Positions 1 through 64,000 of a stretch of 64,000 nucleotides of DNA are shown here, piece after piece. The notes beneath the pieces were generated by a model. The model was not told where the DNA came from and searched no databases. It saw only the letters and a list, made by a program, of their open reading frames with translations. The stretch's first letter is position 1. Each line of letters begins with the position of its first letter. The translations under genes and the position numbers were made by a program. Location of the stretch: positions 1 through 64,000 of the forward strand of contig JAFGXR010000058.1 of NCBI GenBank assembly GCA_016936555.1. The letters run 5' to 3'. This DNA is from Spirochaetales bacterium (GTDB lineage Bacteria; Spirochaetota; Spirochaetia; DSM-2461).

Positions 1-418
1 CCTTTGGCGAGGATGGAAACGACTCATTGACCTCGCCGAAGGCTGGGAGCTCGCCCTTAATCCCAAGACTTATGGGTAATAGTATGTTTTGGGAGAGGGG
101 TTGGGGGTGAGGGCGGGAAAAAGCTCTCTCATAATAAAGTTGTGTATAGAGTTTTCACACAGTCTGCTTGGAAGAGGGTCGGGGAGGGTCGTATTGCCCC
201 TACTGCCAAAAGATAGTACTTCTACACCATTTCAGCTTTTTTTTATTATCAGGGAATTATTCAGCATTTATTCCCAATTTCACAGCAACTAAATACCACT
301 TTCACTATATCCCCAACAATAAATATATAATTTTATCTATATTTTTTCTTTAATATGCTTATGCGATCTGGTATTTATTTATCCATTCGCGTTATGATCG
401 CCCTGAGCCGCCTTCCCG

Positions 419-709
419 GTGAAAATATTTAAAGGAAAATACATGATACTCTTTATTTATGTGGGCTGTCTTATGGGGTTTCTCCTGTTGGGAGCCATAC
501 GGTTTATCAAGGGTCCGGAGCTGAGCGACCGCATCCTCTCGCTGGACACCATGACCATTCTGGTGACTTCGCTCCTCGTCATACTTTCGATCATCCTCGA
601 CAAAGCCATCTATCTCGATGTGGCCATGATCTTCGGAGTTGTCAGCTTCGTGGAAGTCATTGTCTTCGGCCGTTTCCTCGAAAAGGAGGGTCACAGTGAC
701 AGCCACTGA
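419..709 (+). CDS. MrpF/MnhF-like antiporter subunit (MbxB-like) of membrane-bound oxidoreductase
   Basis: 96 aa, three hydrophobic segments, 'GPELSDRILSLDTMT' MrpF signature; first gene of a tightly packed operon. Start may be internal at the second Met. Confidence 0.85.
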   Translation: MKIFKGKYMILFIYVGCLMGFLLLGAIRFIKGPELSDRILSLDTMTILVTSLLVILSIILDKAIYLDVAMIFGVVSFVEVIVFGRFLEKEGHSDSH

Positions 710-1049
710 TATCCTCGCCCTTGCCGCATATATTTTTATGGGATTCGGTGTCCTGACTTTCGGATTAAGCATTATCGGAATCCTCAGAATGCCCGACAGC
801 TACACCCGGATTCATGCGGGAACCAAAGCGTCGACCATGGGAACCATTCTGATACTCCTGGGAACCATGTTTCTCAAACCGCTCTGGATTCCGAAACTCA
901 TTCTCCTCGGGTTTTTCATACTGGCGACGAGCCCGATTTCCTCATCGATCCTGGTCAAAGGATCCTACATCGGAAAAAGCCCGATGTTTACCAAGAAGCC
1001 GTCAAAGGACTACCGGAAGGAACTGCGCGACAAAGGGGAGCCCTCATGA
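696..1049 (+). CDS. MrpG/MnhG-like antiporter subunit (MbxC-like)
   Basis: GTG start at 696 after AAAAGGAGGG; 'GILRMPDSYTRIHAGTKASTMG' is a typical MnhG motif. Confidence 0.88.
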   Translation: MTATDILALAAYIFMGFGVLTFGLSIIGILRMPDSYTRIHAGTKASTMGTILILLGTMFLKPLWIPKLILLGFFILATSPISSSILVKGSYIGKSPMFTKKPSKDYRKELRDKGEPS

Positions 1050-1303
1050 TGATTTATTTTTCCATGCTGGTTCTGTTCATACTCATGAATGTGACGGCTC
1101 TTATGATGATTAAAGAAAAAAGCCTTTTTTCCGCTGTCGCCGCCCTTTCTTTTATCGGACTGCTGGCTTCAGTCGTTTTCTTTCTCCTCGGCGCGCCCGA
1201 TGTGGCACTCACCGAAGCGGCCATGGGTTCCGGCCTGACCAGCCTCGTCTTCGTCGTTGCCATCAGAAACACCAGAAGCCAGGTGGAGGATATCAATGAG
1301 TAG
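1046..1303 (+). CDS. DUF4040/MbhD-like subunit (C-terminal MrpA fragment-like; MbxD-like)
   Basis: 'FFLLGAPDVALTEAAMGSGLTSLVFVVAI' matches the MbhD/MrpA motif; ATGA overlap with the preceding gene. Confidence 0.85.
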   Translation: MMIYFSMLVLFILMNVTALMMIKEKSLFSAVAALSFIGLLASVVFFLLGAPDVALTEAAMGSGLTSLVFVVAIRNTRSQVEDINE

Positions 1304-2018
1304 ACTTATCGTCCCGGTCAAAAAGATTTTTATTCTTCTCCTTCTTCTCGCTCTCTCCTTCAGCGCGTTGTGGATCTTTTTCTCCGCACCGGCCGCTGCG
1401 GAGAGAATCGGAGATCATTACATATCGATCAATGGTTCGGAAATGGGCGCCGCCAATATCGTCACCGCCGTCCTCGGAGGCTTCAGGGGGCTCGATACAC
1501 TGGGAGAGGTCACCATTCTGTTTCTCTCCACAACGGGAATCGGCCTGATCCTCTCCATGGGGGGACAGTATTTCCGCTGGCTCCAGTTCCGCCCCCACGC
1601 CGTTCTGACGGCGGCCATCCCCTATCTGTTTACGGCCATCGTTTTTTACGGCGTCTATATTATCGTTCACGGTCACCTCTCTCCGGGAGGCGGTTTCCAG
1701 GGGGGAGCCGTTATCGCCACGGGTTTCATGCTCCTCTTCTTTACCGATTCGGACCATATGATCAAAAAGAAGGCGATCTATATCAGCGAATCCCTTTCGG
1801 GGCTCTCCTTTGTGATTCTCGGAGTCCTCGGGCTTGTGCTGGCGGGGAGCTTCCTGATGAACTTTCTCCCCCATTCGGTCCGCGATACGGGCCGTCTGCT
1901 CAGCGCGGGAACGCTGCCCCTTCTCTCTCTGTTTATCGGAATCAAAGTGGGAGCGGAACTCTCCGGACTGGCACAGAGCCTGATCGGTCGGAAAGAACAC
2001 AAGGAGGTGGACAAATGA
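1296..2018 (+). CDS. MnhB-domain (MbhE+MbhF fused, MbxF-like) antiporter subunit
   Basis: Start set to ATG at 1296; C-terminal 'YIIVHGHLSPGGGFQGGAVIATGFM' is the MnhB signature. Confidence 0.87.
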   Translation: MSRLIVPVKKIFILLLLLALSFSALWIFFSAPAAAERIGDHYISINGSEMGAANIVTAVLGGFRGLDTLGEVTILFLSTTGIGLILSMGGQYFRWLQFRPHAVLTAAIPYLFTAIVFYGVYIIVHGHLSPGGGFQGGAVIATGFMLLFFTDSDHMIKKKAIYISESLSGLSFVILGVLGLVLAGSFLMNFLPHSVRDTGRLLSAGTLPLLSLFIGIKVGAELSGLAQSLIGRKEHKEVDK

Positions 2019-2386
2019 TGGACTATTTCAACAGCGAAGCTGCGCTGACCCACCTGATGATGGCGGGGATTCTCTCCCTGGTCGTCATCGGGCTCTATGG
2101 GATTCTCACCAGAAAAAACCTGATCAAGATTTTTCTCTCTCTCGGCGTCGTCGAAACAGCAGTGAACATACTCATCGTCGCTCTTCCCTACAGAAAAGGC
2201 GGCGTCGCCCCGATTCTGACAGGTCAGGGAATGGAGGGTTTTCTCGACCCCGTTCCCCAGGCTCTGGTCCTGACGTCCATCGTTATCGGGCTGGCCATTA
2301 CGGCGCTCGGACTGGTTATGGCTGTGAAGTTCTATCAGCACGAAGGCCATCTGAATATCAGAAAAATGAATGGATTAAAGAGGTAA
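2015..2386 (+). CDS. MrpC/NuoK-like subunit (MbxG-like)
   Basis: ATG at 2015 after AAGGAGG, ATGA overlap; 'IGLYGILTRKNLIKIFLSLGVVETAVNIL...DPVPQALVLTSIVIGLAITALGL'. Confidence 0.9.
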   Translation: MMDYFNSEAALTHLMMAGILSLVVIGLYGILTRKNLIKIFLSLGVVETAVNILIVALPYRKGGVAPILTGQGMEGFLDPVPQALVLTSIVIGLAITALGLVMAVKFYQHEGHLNIRKMNGLKR

Positions 2387-2388
2387 TA

Positions 2389-3825
2389 ATGGTATCGACA
2401 ATATGGTTTATCGCTCTGCCGCTCGGTCTGGCCTTTATTCTGCCATTCCGGGGACTGGGCCACACAAAACGGGATCTGACCATTATCCCTCTGGTTCTGA
2501 CAATTGTTCTCGGGGGGCTGCTCTTCCTGTTCCGGTTGGCGGTTACTTCTCCGGTTCTCGAGGGTTTTGTTCTCGACCCGCCTCTGGGCATCAGCTTCCG
2601 GATGGGGGCTACGGAATTTCTGTTCCTGATGATTGTGATCGGTTCGGCCTTTCTTATCGCCCTGAATATCTATGGGGAGAAAAATGACATTTTCAAGGGC
2701 TATCAGTTTCCCCTGATTTTTTCACTCTTTCTCACCGGTGCCATAGGAATCATTCTGACCGGCGATCTTTTCAATCTCTTTATATTCTGGGAGATTCTCT
2801 CCATCGCCGCTTACTTGCTCACAACGCTCGAAGGAAAGAGCCGCAGTTTCGAGGGGGGGATCAAATACCTTCTCACCGGAGCTCTCTCATCGGTATTTAT
2901 TCTGATCGCCGTGTCTCTGATTTACTACTCGGCGGGAACCATGGACATGGTGGAACTGGGCAGACTGATCCCGGCTCTGCCCTCCGGATTTAAAGCTCTG
3001 ATTTTTCTCTGCCTTTTTATCGGGTTCGCCATTGAAGCGGAAATCTTTCCCCTCAATCTCTGGGCGCCCGATGTTTTCGAAGCATCTGAAAGCCGGGCCG
3101 GCGGACTTTTTTCATCAATCGCCGTAAAAACCGCCGCTTTCGCCCTTCTCAGGCTCTTCTTCGTGCTGTTCGGAGGGGCGGAAATAGCGGGGTATTCCTT
3201 TTTTACGGTTCTCCTGGTACTCGCCCTGGCCACCCTGATCATTGCGGAGTTCGCCGCCTTTCATCAGTCCAATCTGAAACGAATGCTCGGCTATTCTTCT
3301 ATCGGGCAGGTGGCGCTGGCCCTAACCGCCCTTTCACTGGCGACGGAAAGCGCTTTGACAGCGGGTCTCTTTCATCTGCTGAACCACAGCCTCATCAAGG
3401 TTCTCCTCTTTTCGCTGGCCGCCTTCTTCATCAGAAAAGCGGGAAGCGAATCGATCGCCGATTTCAAAGGTATGGGCCGGAAATTTCCCGTCGCCGGTCT
3501 CTTCTTCACAATCGGAGCCCTGGCCGTCGCGGGATTTCCCCCCTTCAGCCCTTTCGCCAGCAAAATGGCCATTCTGAAAGCGCTGATGGACGGCGGACAC
3601 TTCATCGTTCTCACGGGCATTCTCGTCGCCACAGTCGTCGAGGTGGGATACTACTTCAAGGTGATTCAGGTTCTCTATGCGCCTGTGGAAAAAACGGAAA
3701 AGGAAAAAATCAAACCGATGGTCCTCTTTTCCTGGTTTGTACCCGCAGCCCTGCTGACCGGTCTGGGAATCTATCCCTCTGTCATTATGAAATATATCAG
3801 CCTCGCCGCAGGCGCGCTGTTCTAA
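2389..3825 (+). CDS. MrpD/NuoN-like proton-conducting membrane transporter (MbxH-like)
   Basis: 478 aa multi-TM protein; 'LFNLFIFWEILSIAAYLL' and 'HLLNHSLIKVLLF' antiporter-like motifs. Confidence 0.92.
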   Translation: MVSTIWFIALPLGLAFILPFRGLGHTKRDLTIIPLVLTIVLGGLLFLFRLAVTSPVLEGFVLDPPLGISFRMGATEFLFLMIVIGSAFLIALNIYGEKNDIFKGYQFPLIFSLFLTGAIGIILTGDLFNLFIFWEILSIAAYLLTTLEGKSRSFEGGIKYLLTGALSSVFILIAVSLIYYSAGTMDMVELGRLIPALPSGFKALIFLCLFIGFAIEAEIFPLNLWAPDVFEASESRAGGLFSSIAVKTAAFALLRLFFVLFGGAEIAGYSFFTVLLVLALATLIIAEFAAFHQSNLKRMLGYSSIGQVALALTALSLATESALTAGLFHLLNHSLIKVLLFSLAAFFIRKAGSESIADFKGMGRKFPVAGLFFTIGALAVAGFPPFSPFASKMAILKALMDGGHFIVLTGILVATVVEVGYYFKVIQVLYAPVEKTEKEKIKPMVLFSWFVPAALLTGLGIYPSVIMKYISLAAGALF

Positions 3826-3835
3826 GGGGTTTTCC

Positions 3836-5701
3836 ATGATTCAAGGAAAATTAACACTGATATTACTTCTTCCCATGGTTTCGGCTCTGGCTGTCTTCTT
3901 TCTGGGAACACATAAAATTATCAGAGAACTATTGTCCATAGTTTCTCTGGCACTGCTTACGGGATTACTGCTGATGAGAATAGTTTCTCCTGTCAGCGAT
4001 GATTTTACCTGGCAGTACATGCCGGGCTTTTTCACTCTCAGTTTTTCTTTAAGCTCTTTCGGCCTGCTCTTCGCCCTGATCGCGGCTATCAGCGGACTGC
4101 TGAAATCCTTTGCCTCCTGGGGGATCAACTCAAAGGGATATCACGCCCTCTTCCACCTGATGATGGGGGGGCTGATGATACTCCTGAGCGCAGGTGACTA
4201 CATCTCCTTCTTTCTGGGATGGGAGATCATGACCTGGTCCAGCTTTATGCTCTTCAACAATTTTTCCTCAGCCGATGATCCCATCGAAAAATCACAGGAT
4301 ACGGGCTTTCTTTTTATCACGCTCTCCCTTATTTCGGCTCTGCTGATGCTCGGAGTTCTCTTCTTTCTTTACAACCGGACGGGAAGCATGAATATCGCCG
4401 ACGGCGTCGCCTGGCTCCATGGAGTCAAGGGTCTTCCCTCGTGGATTCCCGGACTGCTGCTGATGAGCGCCTTTTTCCTGAAAAGCGGACTCCTTCCCTT
4501 TCACGTCTGGGTCCCCGGGACCTACCGGGAAGCGCCCCACACCTTTACGGCCTTTCTATCAGCGGCCCTTTCCAAAGTGGGGATCTACGCCTTTATCCTG
4601 TTCTTTCTCCCTTTTTCCCTGAATGAGGGATCGGGACAGATATCCTATCTCATCGCCTGGATCGGCGCTATCACGGCGACGGTAGCCACTTTCAAGGCCA
4701 TCGAACAGAATGATATGAAAGGGCTTCTCGCCTATTCCTCCATCGGACAGATGGCCTATGTCTTCACAGCTATGGCCGTCGGTTCTTCGCTGGCCATGGG
4801 CGGAGCGCTCTTCCAGATGGTCAACCACAGCCTGATCAAACTCCTCCTCTTTTTCATCGTGGCGGGCATCATCGAGAGAACCGGTAAAACACGGTTCGAC
4901 CAGCTCGGCGGATTGATCTACAAAATGCCCTTCTCCTTTATCGGCGTGCTCGTCGGCATTATCGCTCTGGCGGGAATGCCCCCCTTGAGCGGGTTCTACG
5001 GAAAGTGGATGATTTACACTTCGCTGATCGAAAAGGGGTGGCTGCTGGTTCTGACCGGCATCGTCCTTCCCTCGACGGCGGCTTTTATCTACTGTTACAA
5101 ACTGATTTACGGTATTTTCCTCGGTCACCCGACGGAAGTGAATCCCGAAGAGGCGAAAGAGATTTCTCCCCGCTACCGGGTTCCCTCCGGACTTCTGATG
5201 GCCTCCATCGTCCTTCTCGGACTTTTCCCGGGGCTGATTCTGAAGCCGGTCAATGTTCTTCTCTCCGACTTGGGGATGGAAACACTGGCCCTCACGAGTC
5301 AGGGCAGCCTCAACGCCGCATCCGGATCGGTCAGCGGTTTTATGGTTATGAATGTCTTCGGAGGAGTTTTTGCAGTGATCCTCATTCTTCTTTCGCTCTT
5401 TGGAAAGAAAGCGCCGACCCGCAACCTCCACAGGCTCGATATAGCCTATGCGGGGGAACTTCCCACAGAACAAACGCCTCTCCACTACGGACGGGGCCTG
5501 GGACATGAAGTCAAACGGGTCGCCATCGCCGGAGCGATCGTGAAAAGAAGCCTGACGGAAAAATATATGAAAATCGGAAACCAGCTCGGCGGGATTCTGG
5601 AACATGTCCGGGGATTCTATCCCGGGAACGGCCAGGTATCGCTTATTATGACAATGGTCGGAGCAGCCGCCGTGGCTCTCCTGATCGGACTCAAGGGGTA
5701 A
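3836..5701 (+). CDS. Second antiporter-like subunit (NuoL/HyfB family; MbxH'-like)
   Basis: 621 aa multi-TM; 'FFLGWEIMTWSSFMLF', 'KSGLLPFHVWVPGTYREAPHTFTAFLSA', 'MVNHSLIKLLLFF'. Confidence 0.9.
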   Translation: MIQGKLTLILLLPMVSALAVFFLGTHKIIRELLSIVSLALLTGLLLMRIVSPVSDDFTWQYMPGFFTLSFSLSSFGLLFALIAAISGLLKSFASWGINSKGYHALFHLMMGGLMILLSAGDYISFFLGWEIMTWSSFMLFNNFSSADDPIEKSQDTGFLFITLSLISALLMLGVLFFLYNRTGSMNIADGVAWLHGVKGLPSWIPGLLLMSAFFLKSGLLPFHVWVPGTYREAPHTFTAFLSAALSKVGIYAFILFFLPFSLNEGSGQISYLIAWIGAITATVATFKAIEQNDMKGLLAYSSIGQMAYVFTAMAVGSSLAMGGALFQMVNHSLIKLLLFFIVAGIIERTGKTRFDQLGGLIYKMPFSFIGVLVGIIALAGMPPLSGFYGKWMIYTSLIEKGWLLVLTGIVLPSTAAFIYCYKLIYGIFLGHPTEVNPEEAKEISPRYRVPSGLLMASIVLLGLFPGLILKPVNVLLSDLGMETLALTSQGSLNAASGSVSGFMVMNVFGGVFAVILILLSLFGKKAPTRNLHRLDIAYAGELPTEQTPLHYGRGLGHEVKRVAIAGAIVKRSLTEKYMKIGNQLGGILEHVRGFYPGNGQVSLIMTMVGAAAVALLIGLKG

Positions 5702-5708
5702 TCAGGCT

Positions 5709-6614
5709 ATGTTATTCACCATATTCAACAGCCTTCTGGCTGTTCTGCTCACCTATTCCATGGGGATGCTCTACTACGGTTTCTACCGGATCGGAAACGC
5801 CCGGATCCACCGCCGCGTCGGGCCGCCTCTCTGGCAGAACGTCATCGACAATATCAAGCTCTTCGCCAAGCGGGAGGCTCCCGGACACGGCATCATGTTC
5901 CACCTGGGACCGGTCATTATGACGGCGGGAACCATCACGTCCATGCTCTTCGTCCCCTTTCTGAAGGACAGCGCCTGGCTCCAGGGATTCTCCTCCTACG
6001 GAAACCTCATCCTGCTCATCTATCTGATGGTCGTCGGCCCTCTGGGCAACGCTCTCGCCGTCGGTGTGAGCGGCGTTCCTTTCGGAGTCATGGGCGTGAC
6101 ACGGGGTCTCACCAGACTCATCGGCCTGGAAGTTCCTTTTTTCCTCTCCGTCGCGTTGCTTATGAGCGGCAGCGGAACCATCTCCATCAGCGAAATCATG
6201 ATGGCACAGGACAGTTTTAGCAACTGGAACATGATGGCCCATCCCGCGGCCTTTATCGTCTCCCTTTTCTCCTTCGTGGGGATGATGGGAGCCAGCCCCT
6301 TCGATGTGGTCGGTGCGCCCGTGGAGGTCTACTCGGGACCCCAGGCGGAATTCGGAGGGAAATACCTCGGCTTTCTCGCCGCCCAGAGAGTCATGTTCTC
6401 CATGGTCAAGCTCATCCTCTGGGTGGACCTTTTCCTGGGGGGAGCCACCAATGTCTTTATTCTCATGGCAAAAAGTTTTGCCCTGTTTTTCTTCTATTTC
6501 ATCGTGGGAGCCGCGTTTCCCCGATTCAAAACGGAACAGGCCGTCGACTTCATGCTGAAGCTTCCCCTGATCATCGGGATCGGCGCCGTTCTTGTGCGTT
6601 TCTGGAGTCTGTAA
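5709..6614 (+). CDS. NuoH/HyfC-like membrane subunit (MbxM-like)
   Basis: 'RRVGPPLWQNVIDNIKLFAKREAP' and 'GASPFDVVGAPVEVYSGPQAEFGGKYLG' are NuoH-family motifs. Confidence 0.92.
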   Translation: MLFTIFNSLLAVLLTYSMGMLYYGFYRIGNARIHRRVGPPLWQNVIDNIKLFAKREAPGHGIMFHLGPVIMTAGTITSMLFVPFLKDSAWLQGFSSYGNLILLIYLMVVGPLGNALAVGVSGVPFGVMGVTRGLTRLIGLEVPFFLSVALLMSGSGTISISEIMMAQDSFSNWNMMAHPAAFIVSLFSFVGMMGASPFDVVGAPVEVYSGPQAEFGGKYLGFLAAQRVMFSMVKLILWVDLFLGGATNVFILMAKSFALFFFYFIVGAAFPRFKTEQAVDFMLKLPLIIGIGAVLVRFWSL

Positions 6615-7223
6615 ATGGATAATTTGAACAAGAAAGATAAAGCTCAGTTGAAAGAGCTGAAGTCGCCGATGGCCGTCGTGGACTGGGCCGTGAACTGGTT
6701 CCGCAAGCAGAGCATCTTCATGCTCGCCTACGGAACGGGATGCGGAGCGATTGAAATTCCCCCCACCGTCACGGCGCGCTACGATGCGGAGCGCTTCGGC
6801 GTCAGAGGGGCCGCGACCCCGAGACAGGCCGACGTCATCGTCCTCTCCGGTTACCTGGCCGTCAAAACTTTGAAAAGGGTCATCCGCACCTACGAGCAGA
6901 TGCAGGAACCCAAATACGTTATCGCTCTCGGTTCCTGCCCCATCAACGGCGGCATGTACTGGGACAGCTACAACACGATCAAGCAGCTGGACCGCTACCT
7001 TCCCGTCGATGTCACCGTGGCGGGCTGCATGCCCCGTCCCGAAGCGGTGCTCGAAGGCTTTATGGCCCTCAAGGATAAAATCCAGAGAGGCGAAGCCGAA
7101 GGGGCCCGGGACTACAGGGACAATATCGAAAAGTACAAAAACAACCAGAAAGAGATATTCGGCGACAAAATGCTCCCCGGCTACACCTGCGACTGGTACT
7201 TCTCCGACGGAGGTTCATTCTGA
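6615..7223 (+). CDS. NuoB-like Fe-S small subunit (MbxJ-like)
   Basis: 'GTGCGAIEIPPT', 'RQADVIVLSG', 'YVIALGSCPINGGMYWDSY', 'DVTVAGCMPRPEAVL'. Confidence 0.92.
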   Translation: MDNLNKKDKAQLKELKSPMAVVDWAVNWFRKQSIFMLAYGTGCGAIEIPPTVTARYDAERFGVRGAATPRQADVIVLSGYLAVKTLKRVIRTYEQMQEPKYVIALGSCPINGGMYWDSYNTIKQLDRYLPVDVTVAGCMPRPEAVLEGFMALKDKIQRGEAEGARDYRDNIEKYKNNQKEIFGDKMLPGYTCDWYFSDGGSF

Positions 7224-7789
7224 TGACAGAGACAATCGACAATCTGCTCGAACGGATCGGGCGGAATTTTCAGATAACCGGACAGGAAGTGAAAAAGGCC
7301 GGTCTGGCCGCTCTGCACTGTTCGCAGGAACAGCTTCACGGCGTTCTGATCTACCTGAAAGAAGTGGAGAAATTCGACACTCTGACCATGATCGGCTGTG
7401 CCGACTGGATCGAGGACGACTATTTCGAGCTCTCCTATATGGCCTATTCCTTCACCACCTTTTTTACGGTGATGGTAAAGATCCGCGTCTCCCGCGACGG
7501 ATCTTCGGTTCCGACAGTCGAGGGGATATGGCGGCAGGCCCGGACCTTCGAACGGGAAATCCACGAAATGTTCGGCGTCGACTTCCCCGGTAACACCCGA
7601 CTGAAGGAGTTCTTCCTGGAAAACTGGCAGGGCATGCCCCCGATGAAACGGGATTTCGACACGGTCCAGTTCGTCAAAGACCACTACAAGCTGCGGGAAG
7701 AGGGACGGGAAGGCGCCTGCAATGTCTCGGTGGAGCGGAAAAAGCGCATCGACGCCAAAAAACTGGAACTGAAAAAGGAAGGGGAATAA
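7223..7789 (+). CDS. NuoC-like 30 kDa subunit (MbxK-like)
   Basis: 'ARTFEREIHEMFGVDFPGNTRLKEFFLENWQGMPPMKRDF' is the complex I 30 kDa signature. Confidence 0.9.
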   Translation: MTETIDNLLERIGRNFQITGQEVKKAGLAALHCSQEQLHGVLIYLKEVEKFDTLTMIGCADWIEDDYFELSYMAYSFTTFFTVMVKIRVSRDGSSVPTVEGIWRQARTFEREIHEMFGVDFPGNTRLKEFFLENWQGMPPMKRDFDTVQFVKDHYKLREEGREGACNVSVERKKRIDAKKLELKKEGE

Positions 7790-8898
7790 TGGCACAGGAT
7801 ATTATCACGATTTTCCATGGTCCCCAGCACCCCGGAATCACGGGAAACATGTCTGTTGAGTTGGACCTTCTGGGCGAAACCATAAAAAGAGCCGAAACCC
7901 ATGTGGGATACCTCCATCGAGGTTTCGAGAAAATGATAGAACGGCGGACCGTTCTCCAGGCCTTTACAATCGTCTGCCGGATCTGCGTTCCCGAACCGGA
8001 CCCCAACGAGGAGAACTTCGCCCGCGGCGTGGAAGAGCTTATGGGACTGGAAGTTCCCGAGAAAGCGAAATGGCTCCGGACCATGGTCCTCGAAATGGCC
8101 CGTCTCCAGGCCCAGATGCTCTGGTTTGCCGGACAGGGCGGAAGTCTCGGACACTACATTTCCCCCCAGTGGGCCGTGGCCGACAGAGACCTGATCCTCG
8201 ACCTTTTCGAAGAGCTCACCGGCGGACGGGTCTACCATATGTATATAACGCCCGGCGGGGTCAGAAGGGACCTGCCCGAGGGATTCCTCGGCCGGCTGGG
8301 CCATTTCCTGGACTATCTGGAAAGCCGTCTCCCCGAGTACGACAATATGCTTCTCCGCAACCCGGTCTTTCTGGAAAGAGCCAGAGGCGTGGGCATCATC
8401 GATCCCGCGACAGCCCGGGAATACGGTGTCGTCGGCCCGAACCTCAGAGCCTGCGGATTCATGAACGACATCCGGAAAGACGAGCCCTATGAAATGTACG
8501 GCGAAGTCGATTTTATCGTTCCCACGGAAACAAGCGGCGATGTCTACGGCAGAGCCATGGTCCGCCGGGCGGAAATCGAACAGTCCATCTCCATCCTCCG
8601 GCAGATCATCAGAAGAATGCCCGCTGAGAAAGAGATCATGGCGGTTCTTCCGAAAAACCACAGGAAATGGGAAGTGCCCAAAGGCGATACCCTGGTTAAA
8701 ACCGAATCGGCCCGCGGTGAGTACAGCTATTACATGGTCGGCGACGGAACGGACAAGCTCAGGCGTGTTCAGGTCAAAGGGCCTTCGGCGGTCCATGCCA
8801 TCACCCTGCTCGAGGAAATGCTGGTCGATTCCCAGCTCTCCGATGTGGCCATGATCATGAACTCGCTGGGAACCAATCCCCCGGAAATAGAGAGGTAG
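7789..8898 (+). CDS. NuoD / [NiFe]-hydrogenase large-subunit-like protein (MbxL-like)
   Basis: 'HGPQHPGITGNMSVELDLLGETIKRAETHVGYLHRGFEK'; 'AFTIVCRICVPEPD'; no C-terminal CxxC. Confidence 0.92.
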   Translation: MAQDIITIFHGPQHPGITGNMSVELDLLGETIKRAETHVGYLHRGFEKMIERRTVLQAFTIVCRICVPEPDPNEENFARGVEELMGLEVPEKAKWLRTMVLEMARLQAQMLWFAGQGGSLGHYISPQWAVADRDLILDLFEELTGGRVYHMYITPGGVRRDLPEGFLGRLGHFLDYLESRLPEYDNMLLRNPVFLERARGVGIIDPATAREYGVVGPNLRACGFMNDIRKDEPYEMYGEVDFIVPTETSGDVYGRAMVRRAEIEQSISILRQIIRRMPAEKEIMAVLPKNHRKWEVPKGDTLVKTESARGEYSYYMVGDGTDKLRRVQVKGPSAVHAITLLEEMLVDSQLSDVAMIMNSLGTNPPEIER

Positions 8899-8903
8899 AC
8901 AGT

Positions 8904-9329
8904 ATGAAGATCGATATTAAAGGTATCTGGGGAGCTCTGAGCTCTCTTAAATATCTCTTTCAGCCTCCCGGGACCCTGCGCTACCCCGATGTGAAAAAGG
9001 AAGCCGCCGATGGATACCGGGGCTTTCACGACAACGACCTTTCAAAGTGCATCGGATGCGGGATGTGCGAAGATATCTGCATGAACCTGGCCATCGATAT
9101 GGTCAAGCCGAAAAGCGAAGCTTACCTCAATGCTAAAAACGGATCGGGACTGATTCCCCGGCTCGACTACGGACGGTGCTGCTGGTGTTCGCTCTGTACC
9201 GATGTCTGTCCGGTCAACTCGCTGAAGCTGACGAAAAACTACGTATACGTCTCGGAAGATATGAACAGATTCATCTACACGCCCGGAGAGGAAAAACTGG
9301 GCAAAAGAGAAAAGGAGACCGTGAAATGA
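8904..9329 (+). CDS. NuoI-like 2x[4Fe-4S] ferredoxin subunit (MbxN-like)
   Basis: 'CIGCGMCEDIC' and 'CCWCSLCTDVCP' cluster motifs. Confidence 0.92.
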   Translation: MKIDIKGIWGALSSLKYLFQPPGTLRYPDVKKEAADGYRGFHDNDLSKCIGCGMCEDICMNLAIDMVKPKSEAYLNAKNGSGLIPRLDYGRCCWCSLCTDVCPVNSLKLTKNYVYVSEDMNRFIYTPGEEKLGKREKETVK

Positions 9330-41251: not shown

Positions 41252-41890
41252 ATGGGAAAAATCATTAACATAATAAGACCTGATGAAGATCTCGAGCTTC
41301 TTCTATCGGAAATGACTTCTATTCCGGATTCTCCTTTTACATTTCACATCACAGATAAACCATTTGTATCAGCTGAAATTCTTTTTTTGTCTTTTGATAA
41401 TTTATCAAAGTATAGAGAGCATAACCCTGAATTCAGGTATATTCCCTTTATCGTCTATGGTAAACTTACCTATTTGAACAGAGCCTTCGCTCTGGGTGCT
41501 TCTGATTATATAAAACCACCTTATTCGCTCGATGAACTACTTTGCCGCTCAACGAGATTATGCAAAGATGATCGCCTCTCCATTAATGGACTGGAGGCCA
41601 GTTTTGATTTATCTGGAATTCGTTACAAAGAACAATTTATTCCATTTACAGAAAGCGAATATAAAATACTGCATATACTTATCATGAATATTCATAGAAT
41701 TGTCGATAGAGAGATTTTCCATTATCGCCTGGACCTGGGTGAAGATATTCACCGTTCACTGGATGTGCATATGAACTCTCTCAGAAATAAACTTGAAATT
41801 CTTGTTTCAGATAAAGAAACTGGCAGAAAAATCATAAAGACTGTCAGGGGAAAAGGTTATATGATTAATTCACAGTTCACTTGTGGATAA
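41252..41890 (+). CDS. OmpR-type winged-helix regulator with receiver-like, non-canonical N-terminus
   Basis: C-terminal 'LTESEYKILHILIMN...SLDVHMNSLRNKLE...IKTVRGKGYMI'; N-terminal REC-like 'GASDYIKPPYSLDELL' without phospho-acceptor Asp. Confidence 0.8.
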   Translation: MGKIINIIRPDEDLELLLSEMTSIPDSPFTFHITDKPFVSAEILFLSFDNLSKYREHNPEFRYIPFIVYGKLTYLNRAFALGASDYIKPPYSLDELLCRSTRLCKDDRLSINGLEASFDLSGIRYKEQFIPFTESEYKILHILIMNIHRIVDREIFHYRLDLGEDIHRSLDVHMNSLRNKLEILVSDKETGRKIIKTVRGKGYMINSQFTCG

Positions 41891-42085
41891 CTTGTTAAAA
41901 ACTATAATTTCACAAGGAATAAGTTTTTTAAAATTCGATATTTTCCTGACTAACCATTCTTTAAATACTATTTAATTACTTACATTATATATGATTAGCA
42001 AGTAAGGGTAACCTAAATTCCCGGATTCCGGGGTTGTGGATAAGCTGTGGAAGAATTCTGAATTTCTCTAATAAATTGTGGATAA
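41882..42085 (+). promoter_or_regulatory. Cluster of three perfect DnaA boxes (TGTGGATAA) at 41882, 42035 and 42077
   Basis: Exact TGTGGATAA three times in the same orientation; related TGTGGAAGA at 42046. Confidence 0.7.
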
Positions 42086-51154: not shown

Positions 51155-52267
51155 TTAATCCATCTGCATTGGCATAATTATATGAAAATAGTTTTTCTGG
51201 GGAACAGAATTGAGAGTTATAGCTCTATTGGCTTCAGTAAAATCAATCCTGATTTCCTCATCTTCAATAACTCTCAGGGGATCCTGAAGGTACTGGCAGT
51301 TGAGGGCAATAGTCAAATCCGGACCGTTGTAAATACAGGAGAAATCCTCTTTTGCCACCCCGATATCGCTTTCCTCCGATTTTAACGATATGGTTTCACC
51401 GGAAACAGAGAGAAAAATCCGCTTGGATTTCTGCTCAGCAAGAAGTGATACACGTTTAAGAGCATCGGAAAAGTCCCTTTTGCTGATAGTTATGCTGTAT
51501 TCCTGTTTTTCAGGAATAACCCGGTTATAATTTGGAAACTGTCCGTCTATCAATGTGGAATAAACTTTCTGATTATCAAATTTCACATAAAGAGTCTTTT
51601 CGGAAACGGCAATGGAAAGGTTACCTTCACCGGAAGAGAGTTTTTTAACAAGATTAAGAATCTTCGAAGGAATAATAACGCCGTTAAAATCCTCAATGGG
51701 ATTTTCCAGTGTCTCTGAAATATAGGAAAGTCGTCTTCCATCAGTAGCGACCATTATAATTTCCTCTCCGTTTTTTTCCATATAGACACCATTCATAAAA
51801 TATCTGGTTTCATCATCGGAAATGGAAAATACAGTCTGGGAAATCATCTCGTTGAACTTACTCTGTGAAAATTCAAAGTAATGTTCTTCAGATATATCCT
51901 GAATTTCAGGAAATTTCTCCGAAGATATGGTTTTGAGCTGAAAATCAATTTTTTTATCGACGGGTTTGATAACGAGTTTTTCATTATCTTTCAGAATAAA
52001 GTCTATATCACCTTCAGGAAGGGATCGAAGAATTCCCAGAAATTTATCACAAAAGACCGATGTACTTCCGGAAATTTCCACATGAACGGGAATTCTGGTC
52101 TCGAATCCCACTTTCAGGTCAGTAGCCCTTATGATAAGTGAATCGTCAATGGCTTCAATCATAACATTGGAGAGAATGGACAGAGCATTTCTTGAGGAAA
52201 TTATCTCATGAGCTATGGAAATTTCCTTGAGAATAACGTTTTTTTCACAATTGAATTTCATTTTCAA
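51155..52267 (-). CDS. dnaN: DNA polymerase III beta clamp
   Basis: Three-domain clamp; 'SILSNVMIEA', 'YFMNGVYMEKNGEEIIMVATDGRRLSY'. Confidence 0.95.
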   Translation of the reverse strand: MKMKFNCEKNVILKEISIAHEIISSRNALSILSNVMIEAIDDSLIIRATDLKVGFETRIPVHVEISGSTSVFCDKFLGILRSLPEGDIDFILKDNEKLVIKPVDKKIDFQLKTISSEKFPEIQDISEEHYFEFSQSKFNEMISQTVFSISDDETRYFMNGVYMEKNGEEIIMVATDGRRLSYISETLENPIEDFNGVIIPSKILNLVKKLSSGEGNLSIAVSEKTLYVKFDNQKVYSTLIDGQFPNYNRVIPEKQEYSITISKRDFSDALKRVSLLAEQKSKRIFLSVSGETISLKSEESDIGVAKEDFSCIYNGPDLTIALNCQYLQDPLRVIEDEEIRIDFTEANRAITLNSVPQKNYFHIIMPMQMD

Positions 52268-52296
52268 ATTCTCCTAAATATTTTTATAAGAAACAG

Positions 52297-52332
52297 TAGT
52301 AGTAGTAGTAGGCCCTGTGAATTTGTGGATAA
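52297..52332 (-). promoter_or_regulatory. oriC: Candidate oriC basal unwinding element: DnaA box, GC cluster, DnaA-trios
   Basis: + strand (TAG)x5 at 52297-52311, GGCCC 52311-52315, TGTGAATTT 52316-52324, perfect TGTGGATAA 52324-52332. Confidence 0.75.
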
Positions 52333-52473
52333 CCATACAAGTCTATAAATAATCAAATTTTATCCGTTTAAAAATTACTGTATAAAAGACTCCGGGAATT
52401 CACAGAATTCACAATCTTACTAAAGTAAAGCGGATTATACAGAATTTATCCACTGAATTATATCACTTATCAA

Positions 52474-53871: not shown

Positions 53872-54239
53872 AATTTCTCCATAAACCATATTATTAAGAA
53901 TTTCTGCAAATTGTAAATAATTAATTACTTTATATACCTGTGGAAAAGTTATTCGCCAGTATTAATAAATCCTTAATAGAAAAGCACTTATTAAGTTTCC
54001 ACAGGATAAAAAAATAATATTACTGTATTTAAGGAAACATTTTATTGATAATTACTTACTACATAAATAAATATTTATATTAATCCACATGTTATACAAT
54101 AACAAAACGTGTATATTCTATTTGAGAAATCATAGAGATGCAAGCGCTAATCGACCTTTACTTTTTCACTATCTGTCGATATACTGATTTATCTTTTCAC
54201 ACTAACATTTTATATGTATAAAATTATGCAAACAGGTAG

Positions 54240-56153
<1,914 letters not shown>

Positions 56154-63467: not shown

Positions 63468-63552
63468 GGAGAGGTGTCCGAGCGGTCGAAGGAACTGGTC
63501 TTGAAAACCAGCGTAGGGAAACCTACCGTGGGTTCGAATCCCACCCTCTCCG
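63468..63552 (+). tRNA. tRNA-Ser (TGA)
   Basis: GGAGAGG...CCTCTCCG acceptor, long variable arm, anticodon loop CTTGAAA, GGTTCGAATCC T-arm. Confidence 0.95.
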
Positions 63553-63567
63553 TTCAAAAAAATTACT

Positions 63568-63654
63568 GGAGAGGTGACCGAGCGGCCGAAGGTGGCACCC
63601 TGCTAAGGTGTTGTGCGGGTAACCGCACCGGGGGTTCGAATCCCCCCCTCTCCG
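63568..63654 (+). tRNA. tRNA-Ser (GCT)
   Basis: GGAGAGG...CCTCTCCG acceptor; anticodon region CCTGCTAAGG; long variable arm. Confidence 0.95.
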
Positions 63655-63659
63655 ATCGC

Positions 63660-63733
63660 GTGCCCATAGCTCAGTTGGATAGAGCGTTAGATTGCGGATC
63701 TAAAGGTCGGAGGTTCGAATCCTCTTGGGCATA
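63660..63733 (+). tRNA. tRNA-Arg (GCG)
   Basis: GTGCCCA...TGGGCATA; anticodon stem TTAGA-TTGCGGA-TCTAA. Confidence 0.9.
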
Positions 63734-63785
63734 CTCTGTCAGACGCCAATCGGTACTGACGGTAAAAAACATATCATTTCAACCT

Positions 63786-63870
<85 letters not shown>

Positions 63871-63875
63871 TTTTT

Positions 63876-64000
63876 CCCCTTCGGTGCTGACTTTCAGGTT
63901 CTGCACTATTCCTCATTGCCCAACCCCGTCAGGACCGGAAGGTAGCAGCGGTAAGTAATCGAGAAATGTGTGCAATAAGCTTGAAATGAGCTGAAGGGGT
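63876..64000 (+). ncRNA. ffs: Signal recognition particle RNA (4.5S-like); ends approximate, may run past the window
   Basis: 'CCCCGTCAGGACCGGAAGGTAGCAGCGG' SRP tip motif; CCCCTTC (63876-63882) pairs with GAAGGGG (63993-63999). Confidence 0.88.

Follow-up and report, generated by a model that had tools for sequence, protein, structure and literature searches.

The window, by which we mean the whole 64-kb stretch of DNA that was analyzed, belongs to an uncultured member of the Spirochaetia and not to Borrelia. The relatives of this host are uncultured Spirochaetaceae/Spirochaetales, the nearest named organism having ~83% DnaA identity and one genome of the same genus 93%. The identities of the genes dnaA, dnaN, recF, and gyrB were confirmed. 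Between dnaN and dnaA there is a gap of ~212 bp with a G+C content of 28%, and this part of the window has the following features:

51155–52261, − strand: dnaN (TIGR00663, E 6e-105)
52262–52293, − strand: AT-rich stretch beside the trios, reaching into the dnaN ribosome-binding site
52294–52311, − strand: DnaA-trio array, five CTA and one CTG; on the opposite strand five 3′-GAT-5′ and one 3′-GAC-5′
52312–52315, − strand: GC cluster GGGC between box and trios
52316–52323, − strand: weak second DnaA box AATTCACA, forming a tandem with the strong one
52324–52332, − strand: strong upstream DnaA box, perfect TTATCCACA with 0 mismatches (TGTGGATAA on the + strand), in a slot 12 nt before the trios that is kept in relatives
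52396–52414, + strand: two weak DnaA-box-like sites AATTCACA in tandem, opposite-facing, in the region GAATTCACAGAATTCACAA
52446–52454, + strand: DnaA box TTATCCACT, reverse orientation, conserved in L003, L004, and L005
52474–53889, − strand: dnaA (TIGR00362, E 3e-153; Bac_DnaA and Bac_DnaA_C domains)
53890–54245: dnaA–gyrB gap with the DnaA boxes TTTTCCACA (53939–53947, − strand) and TAATCCACA (54081–54089, + strand), without trio array

In the sense of dnaA (− strand) the gap thus starts with the reverse-facing TTATCCACT box and the two weak reverse-facing sites, which are followed by the tandem TTATCCACA–AATTCACA, GGGC, CTACTACTACTACTACTG, and AT-rich DNA. A previous sequence-only reading had described five perfect trios followed by AT-rich DNA in this gap, and its coordinates were all right when we re-read them: five TAG on the + strand (52297–52311), GGCCC (52311–52315, the G at 52311 being common to the cluster and the first trio), TTATCCACA, GAATTCACAGAATTCACAA, and TTATCCACT. 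The second weaker box mentioned there is AATTCACA at 52323–52316, and to the five trios a sixth triplet, CTG (3′-GAC-5′, 52296–52294), can be added. The start codon of dnaN is most likely the ATG at 52261, only ~33 nt past the array.

The 15-mer TACTACTACTACTAC occurs once in the 4.73-Mb assembly and its reversed control not at all; within the window the trio array is the sole run of at least three CTA. A box with at most two mismatches, followed by a spacer of 11–13 nt and at least four CTA/TTA triplets, is present at a single place in the window, namely the dnaN–dnaA array. The loose published rule (any NAN three times, at most 16 nt from a box) alone would match 82 places in the window, and therefore the argument has to be carried by the full architecture and by conservation, the latter being the stronger proof. 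Boxes as such are frequent: TTATCCACA is found 34 times within one mismatch in the window, against 14.5 expected and with no shuffle reaching 34, and 6 of the 57 perfect copies in the 4.73-Mb assembly are located in the window.

A basal unwinding system (BUS) was predicted in 1755 of 2070 bacterial origins by Pelliciari and colleagues (PMC8287927), where the GAT trio and tandem boxes were commonest and the spacer peaked at 10–13 bp. The published description asks for at least one DnaA box with at most two mismatches, most commonly a tandem with the stronger box upstream, and here we find TTATCCACA and then AATTCACA. The distance between box and first trio should be at most 16 bp with a peak at 10–13, and is 12 nt and conserved in our case. 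Instead of the minimum of three 3′-NAN-5′ trios, with 3′-GAT-5′ favored, there are five GAT and one GAC, and the site also lies where expected, within oriC beside dnaA/dnaN and at the switch of the skew. The conserved module of box, GC cluster, and trios claimed by the sequence-only reading is therefore present with each of its published sequence traits, and it is kept in relatives.

The GC skew of the window, which is weak, turns from negative to positive at ~53 kb (sign change near 52–54 kb). In 20-kb samples from the complete genome of a relative (G002), the skew is above zero from 3.25 Mb round to 0.85 Mb and below zero between 1.45 and 3.05 Mb. The dnaA gene of G002 is at 3.118 Mb, and the sign changes at this locus and again on the opposite side of the chromosome. 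The skew analysis, which had been suggested as a check, agrees in the window and in this relative. Windows of 2 kb beside dnaA likewise show the switch at the locus in G002 and G014. Chromosome copying in this uncultured spirochaete very probably starts at this spot. The resolution of the skew is too coarse to separate the dnaN–dnaA gap from the dnaA–gyrB gap, which are 1.5 kb apart, and in the third-codon-position skew of dnaA, calculated with the aim of choosing between both gaps, the neighboring genes had no common sign. As a side observation on base composition, positions 1–9000 of the window have a G+C content of 50–56%, compared with 36–39% around the origin, and could be a foreign stretch or a different gene class.

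We compared the gap downstream of dnaA in 18 relatives of the family, 71 other spirochaete loci, and 24 Borrelia-type genomes; since these loci share ancestry, the counts of genomes are not counts of independent events. All 19 family arrays (window and 18 relatives) consist of six triplets in one register, the array being fixed in length and register. Trio 1 is always CTA, trios 2, 3, and 5 are CTA or TTA, and trio 6 is CTN in 19 of 19 loci; trio 4 is looser (CTG, CTT, one CAA), and the middle T is lost in only 1 of 114 triplets. No shuffled gap matched the score of the real array in 60 trials per family locus. The slot of the weak box is occupied by AATTCACA, TTTCCACA, or TATCCACA in the relatives, and the GC cluster position reads GGCC, GGGC, or GACC in most family members. 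The weak sites at 52396–52414 are kept in L003, and L004 has GTATCCACA in the same part of the gap. Outside the family, 42 of the 71 other spirochaete loci have the best box (at most two mismatches) at a distance of exactly 12 nt from the array. The interval between array and dnaN is variable in this wider set, ranging from 16 to over 150 nt. The fourth trio, whose middle base is often lost, is again the most tolerant one (CGA in eight loci of the wider set); trios 1, 2, 5, and 6 mostly stay. One trio of the same-genus relative L003, CAA, violates the NAN rule, and the arrays of several distant spirochaetes (e.g., L044, L053, L072, and L073) are poor. We therefore conclude that parts of the array are dispensable and that some loci do without the complete set of six trios. 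In L006, L009, and L013 (genus g6) the boxes beside the trios read TTATCCCC/TTTTCCCC for TTATCCACA, as if the box preference had drifted.

Boxes are also enriched on the other side of dnaA. Over the 18 family loci (window included) there are 40 boxes within one mismatch in the dnaA–gyrB gap against 1.4 expected, and 55 in the dnaN–dnaA gap against 1.8 expected. The dnaA–gyrB gaps of the same 18 loci contained no trio array above background, with scores of at most 7 compared with 12.5–18 in the dnaN–dnaA gap. The claim that initiation takes place here and not in the dnaA–gyrB gap consequently stands for unwinding, the trios being at background there, but goes too far as a statement on oriC in view of the 40 boxes. 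It is possible, though in our estimate not probable, that oriC is bipartite and that the boxes of both gaps act together across dnaA; opening would still occur at the trios, so such an arrangement is compatible with the BUS. The excess of boxes conserved in both gaps of the 18 family loci speaks for it, and conserved box clusters on both sides of dnaA are seen in the genera g1, g3, and g5, being weak or absent in g4 and g6. On the other hand, L006 and L017–L020 keep the BUS but have a short dnaA–gyrB gap without box, and boxes upstream of dnaA may merely serve dnaA autoregulation. The function of the dnaA–gyrB gap may be dnaA autoregulation, or the gap may form the accessory half of an origin in two parts.

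The proximity of the array to the start codon of dnaN (~33 nt) would also fit a regulatory leader of dnaN, initiation taking place elsewhere. In many relatives, however, the array is 90–157 nt away from dnaN with the box distance still being 12 nt, and the GC skew switches at this very locus; we therefore consider a mere leader function of boxes and repeat very improbable. An interpretation of the TAG run as a neutral trinucleotide microsatellite, a doubt raised by the sequence-only reading itself, is more improbable still: slippage could yield a perfect repeat of five units, but a neutral repeat would vary in length, whereas the family arrays show no length variation and differ by substitutions mostly keeping the trio pattern, the 12-nt register to the box is fixed, and the array is maintained across the Spirochaetia.

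The order of box, box, GC cluster, and trios, the 12-nt spacer, the AT-rich DNA downstream, the adjacency of dnaA, the skew switch, and above all the conservation in relatives lead us to regard the dnaN–dnaA gap as, in all likelihood, the unwinding half of the chromosome origin, which would work as in the Bacillus subtilis model. Sequence, uniqueness, conserved spacing and register, and the position at the skew switch were computed here, and DnaA binding, strand capture, opening, and helicase loading are adopted from this model. DnaA would bind to the tandem TTATCCACA–AATTCACA on duplex DNA, and the 12-nt spacer with the GC cluster would set the register in which the next DnaA protomers step onto the 3′-GAT-5′ trio strand. 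By polymerizing along the six triplets DnaA would stretch the trio strand, and the AT-rich DNA beside dnaN (52262–52293), which we infer to be the unwinding region, would open for helicase loading. Strand separation at the site is predicted to be DnaA-dependent and to need boxes as well as trios.

Trios and 12-nt spacing, where they are kept, fix the position of the DnaA box even if its sequence cannot be recognized. The value of the origin module is therefore that of a ruler for locating the DnaA box, and it yields a concrete candidate for the borrelial one. The oriC of Borrelia burgdorferi was placed in the dnaA–dnaN gap and unusual DnaA binding was reported; the borrelial DnaA box was described as still to be identified, with work under way (PMC9879097). 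Our Borrelia-type set comprises 24 genomes (L103–L106 and L147–L166), the assignment resting partly on the DnaA sequence and on a ~0.9-Mb contig that has dnaA in its middle. The gap of genus g33 has a full trio array, for example CTACTACTGTTACTACTA, and in genus g13 trios 3 and 4 are degenerate, typically CTACTAATACAACTATTA. A TTATCCACA-like box before the trios is absent in g33 and g13 (24 Borrelia-type genomes); its position is held by a tandem of AATTRRACA, for example AATTAGACA–ATTAGACA or AATTGAACA–ATCAAACA. The dnaA–dnaN gaps of the Borrelia-type genomes, 6.3 kb in total, contain 64 exact copies of AATTRRACA (10.2 per kb), compared with none in 11.2 kb on the gyrB–dnaA side of these genomes, and in two whole genomes searched the mismatch-free tandem is present once per genome, at the dnaA–dnaN site. 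The DnaA protein differs as well, with GGKTHSTVLYS in Borrelia and GGRDHTTVMHS in the window. The change affects D433, T435, and H439 (E. coli numbering by our own alignment), which are among the base-contact residues listed (PMC7561715); D433 is also discussed in PMC8235120. From these sequences the AATTRRACA tandem is a candidate for the borrelial DnaA box. Purified borrelial DnaA was reported to bind the 5′ regions of dnaX and holA (PMC9879097). Exact AATTRRACA had no match in the dnaX and holA 5′ regions of eight genomes, holA being weakly matched by Pfam PF06144 in one Borrelia genome only and assigned in the others through a dnaX-family match of similar length and position. The motif therefore does not explain the published binding data. 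In the window itself, four tRNA genes (three Ser, one Arg) and then the SRP RNA are found at 63468–63989, similar to the tRNA–srp–dnaX order described for Borrelia.

A second group of boxes is situated ~10 kb from oriC:

41882–42085, − strand: oriC-proximal, oriented DnaA-box element with three perfect boxes, intergenic
41882–41895: extended box ACAAGTTATCCACA, first box of the element
42035–42043 and 42077–42085: further boxes of the element

This element lies between two convergent genes, murA and a winged-helix regulator gene, whose 3′ ends face each other; the stop codon of the regulator gene is inside the first box. The same gap keeps the boxes in G011, G012, G013, G004, G005, and G002, most of the DNA between them not being conserved, and ACAAGTTATCCACA is invariant in these six and the window (7 of 7); G014 has similar boxes in another convergent gap. 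As an exact 14-mer ACAAGTTATCCACA is found in 47 of 120 Spirochaetia genomes, compared with 2 for the reversed pattern. Many Spirochaetia possess a pair of extended boxes in the same orientation ~200–235 bp apart. Of 394 genomes searched in the phylum, 26 contain the pattern AAGTTATCCACA-N186–216-AAGTTATCCACA, every one of them belonging to the Spirochaetia, and the reversed control is found in none. Nearly all pairs are in noncoding gaps; they follow murA or a DUF721-like gene, lie near STAS-domain genes, or, in other families, occupy the dnaA–gyrB gap. Unless a family search is named, gene neighbors beyond the window were described by eye. The distance of the pair from dnaA is 13 to ~340 kb in single-contig genomes. 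In the window copy only one side carries the extended box. A full pair, with the boxes 235 bp apart, is present elsewhere in this genome, on contig C82 (2498–2746; L189, G000) beside a recC-like gene. This second extended pair beside a recC-like gene occurs in two genera, 235 bp apart in L189 and L190 and 171 in L192. A Rayleigh test of helical phasing of the box pairs gave small nominal p values for 10, 10.5, and 11 bp without distinction, and the data are phylogenetically dependent, so that we claim no phasing. A structured RNA at the distal element was considered and rejected (fold z-score 0.34). In L201 and L202 a parS-like palindrome, TGTTTCACGTGAAACA, is positioned between the paired DnaA boxes.

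The distal element is a noncoding DnaA-box cluster outside oriC that is conserved among relatives, as is characteristic of sites of the datA/DARS type. By this analogy our guess is that it may be a DnaA reservoir or a datA/DARS-type control site. Tentatively, and with some reservation, we propose a combined picture in which the window element binds DnaA off oriC and tunes initiation, in the manner of datA/DARS or of a box cluster, and in which Borrelia would have kept the trios and changed the box to AATTRRACA together with the DnaA residues reading it. In a limited literature search we found no report of a datA/DARS-type initiation-control site in spirochaetes; if functional, the distal element would give them one of this kind.

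With datA and DARS of Escherichia coli and the oriC-proximal clusters of B. subtilis the distal element has in common a noncoding intergenic box cluster outside oriC whose position is conserved. It differs from datA/DARS in the same-orientation extended pair ~200–235 bp apart in many genomes, and is known from its position and its boxes. The B. burgdorferi oriC (PMC9879097) is in the same gap, and Borrelia-type genomes have the trio array in the same register, but the TTATCCACA-like box is replaced by the AATTRRACA tandem and contact residues of DnaA domain IV are altered. The bipartite oriC of Helicobacter pylori (PMC8235120) resembles the spirochaete locus in having boxes on both sides of dnaA, with trios confined to one half, but its boxes have a different sequence and different distances. 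The BUS of B. subtilis (PMC6669920, PMC8287927) also has DnaA-box pair, GC region, and trios in the same order in the dnaA–dnaN gap, the upstream box nearer to the consensus, mostly 3′-GAT-5′ trios, and a spacer within the 10–13-nt peak. The spirochaete site, known here from its sequence, belongs to a different phylum and has gyrB divergent from dnaA. To sum up, the spirochaete origin follows the standard bacterial plan and is conserved in relatives, which is expected and not new, and it confirms in uncultured spirochaetes a mechanism whose occurrence in most bacteria had been predicted.
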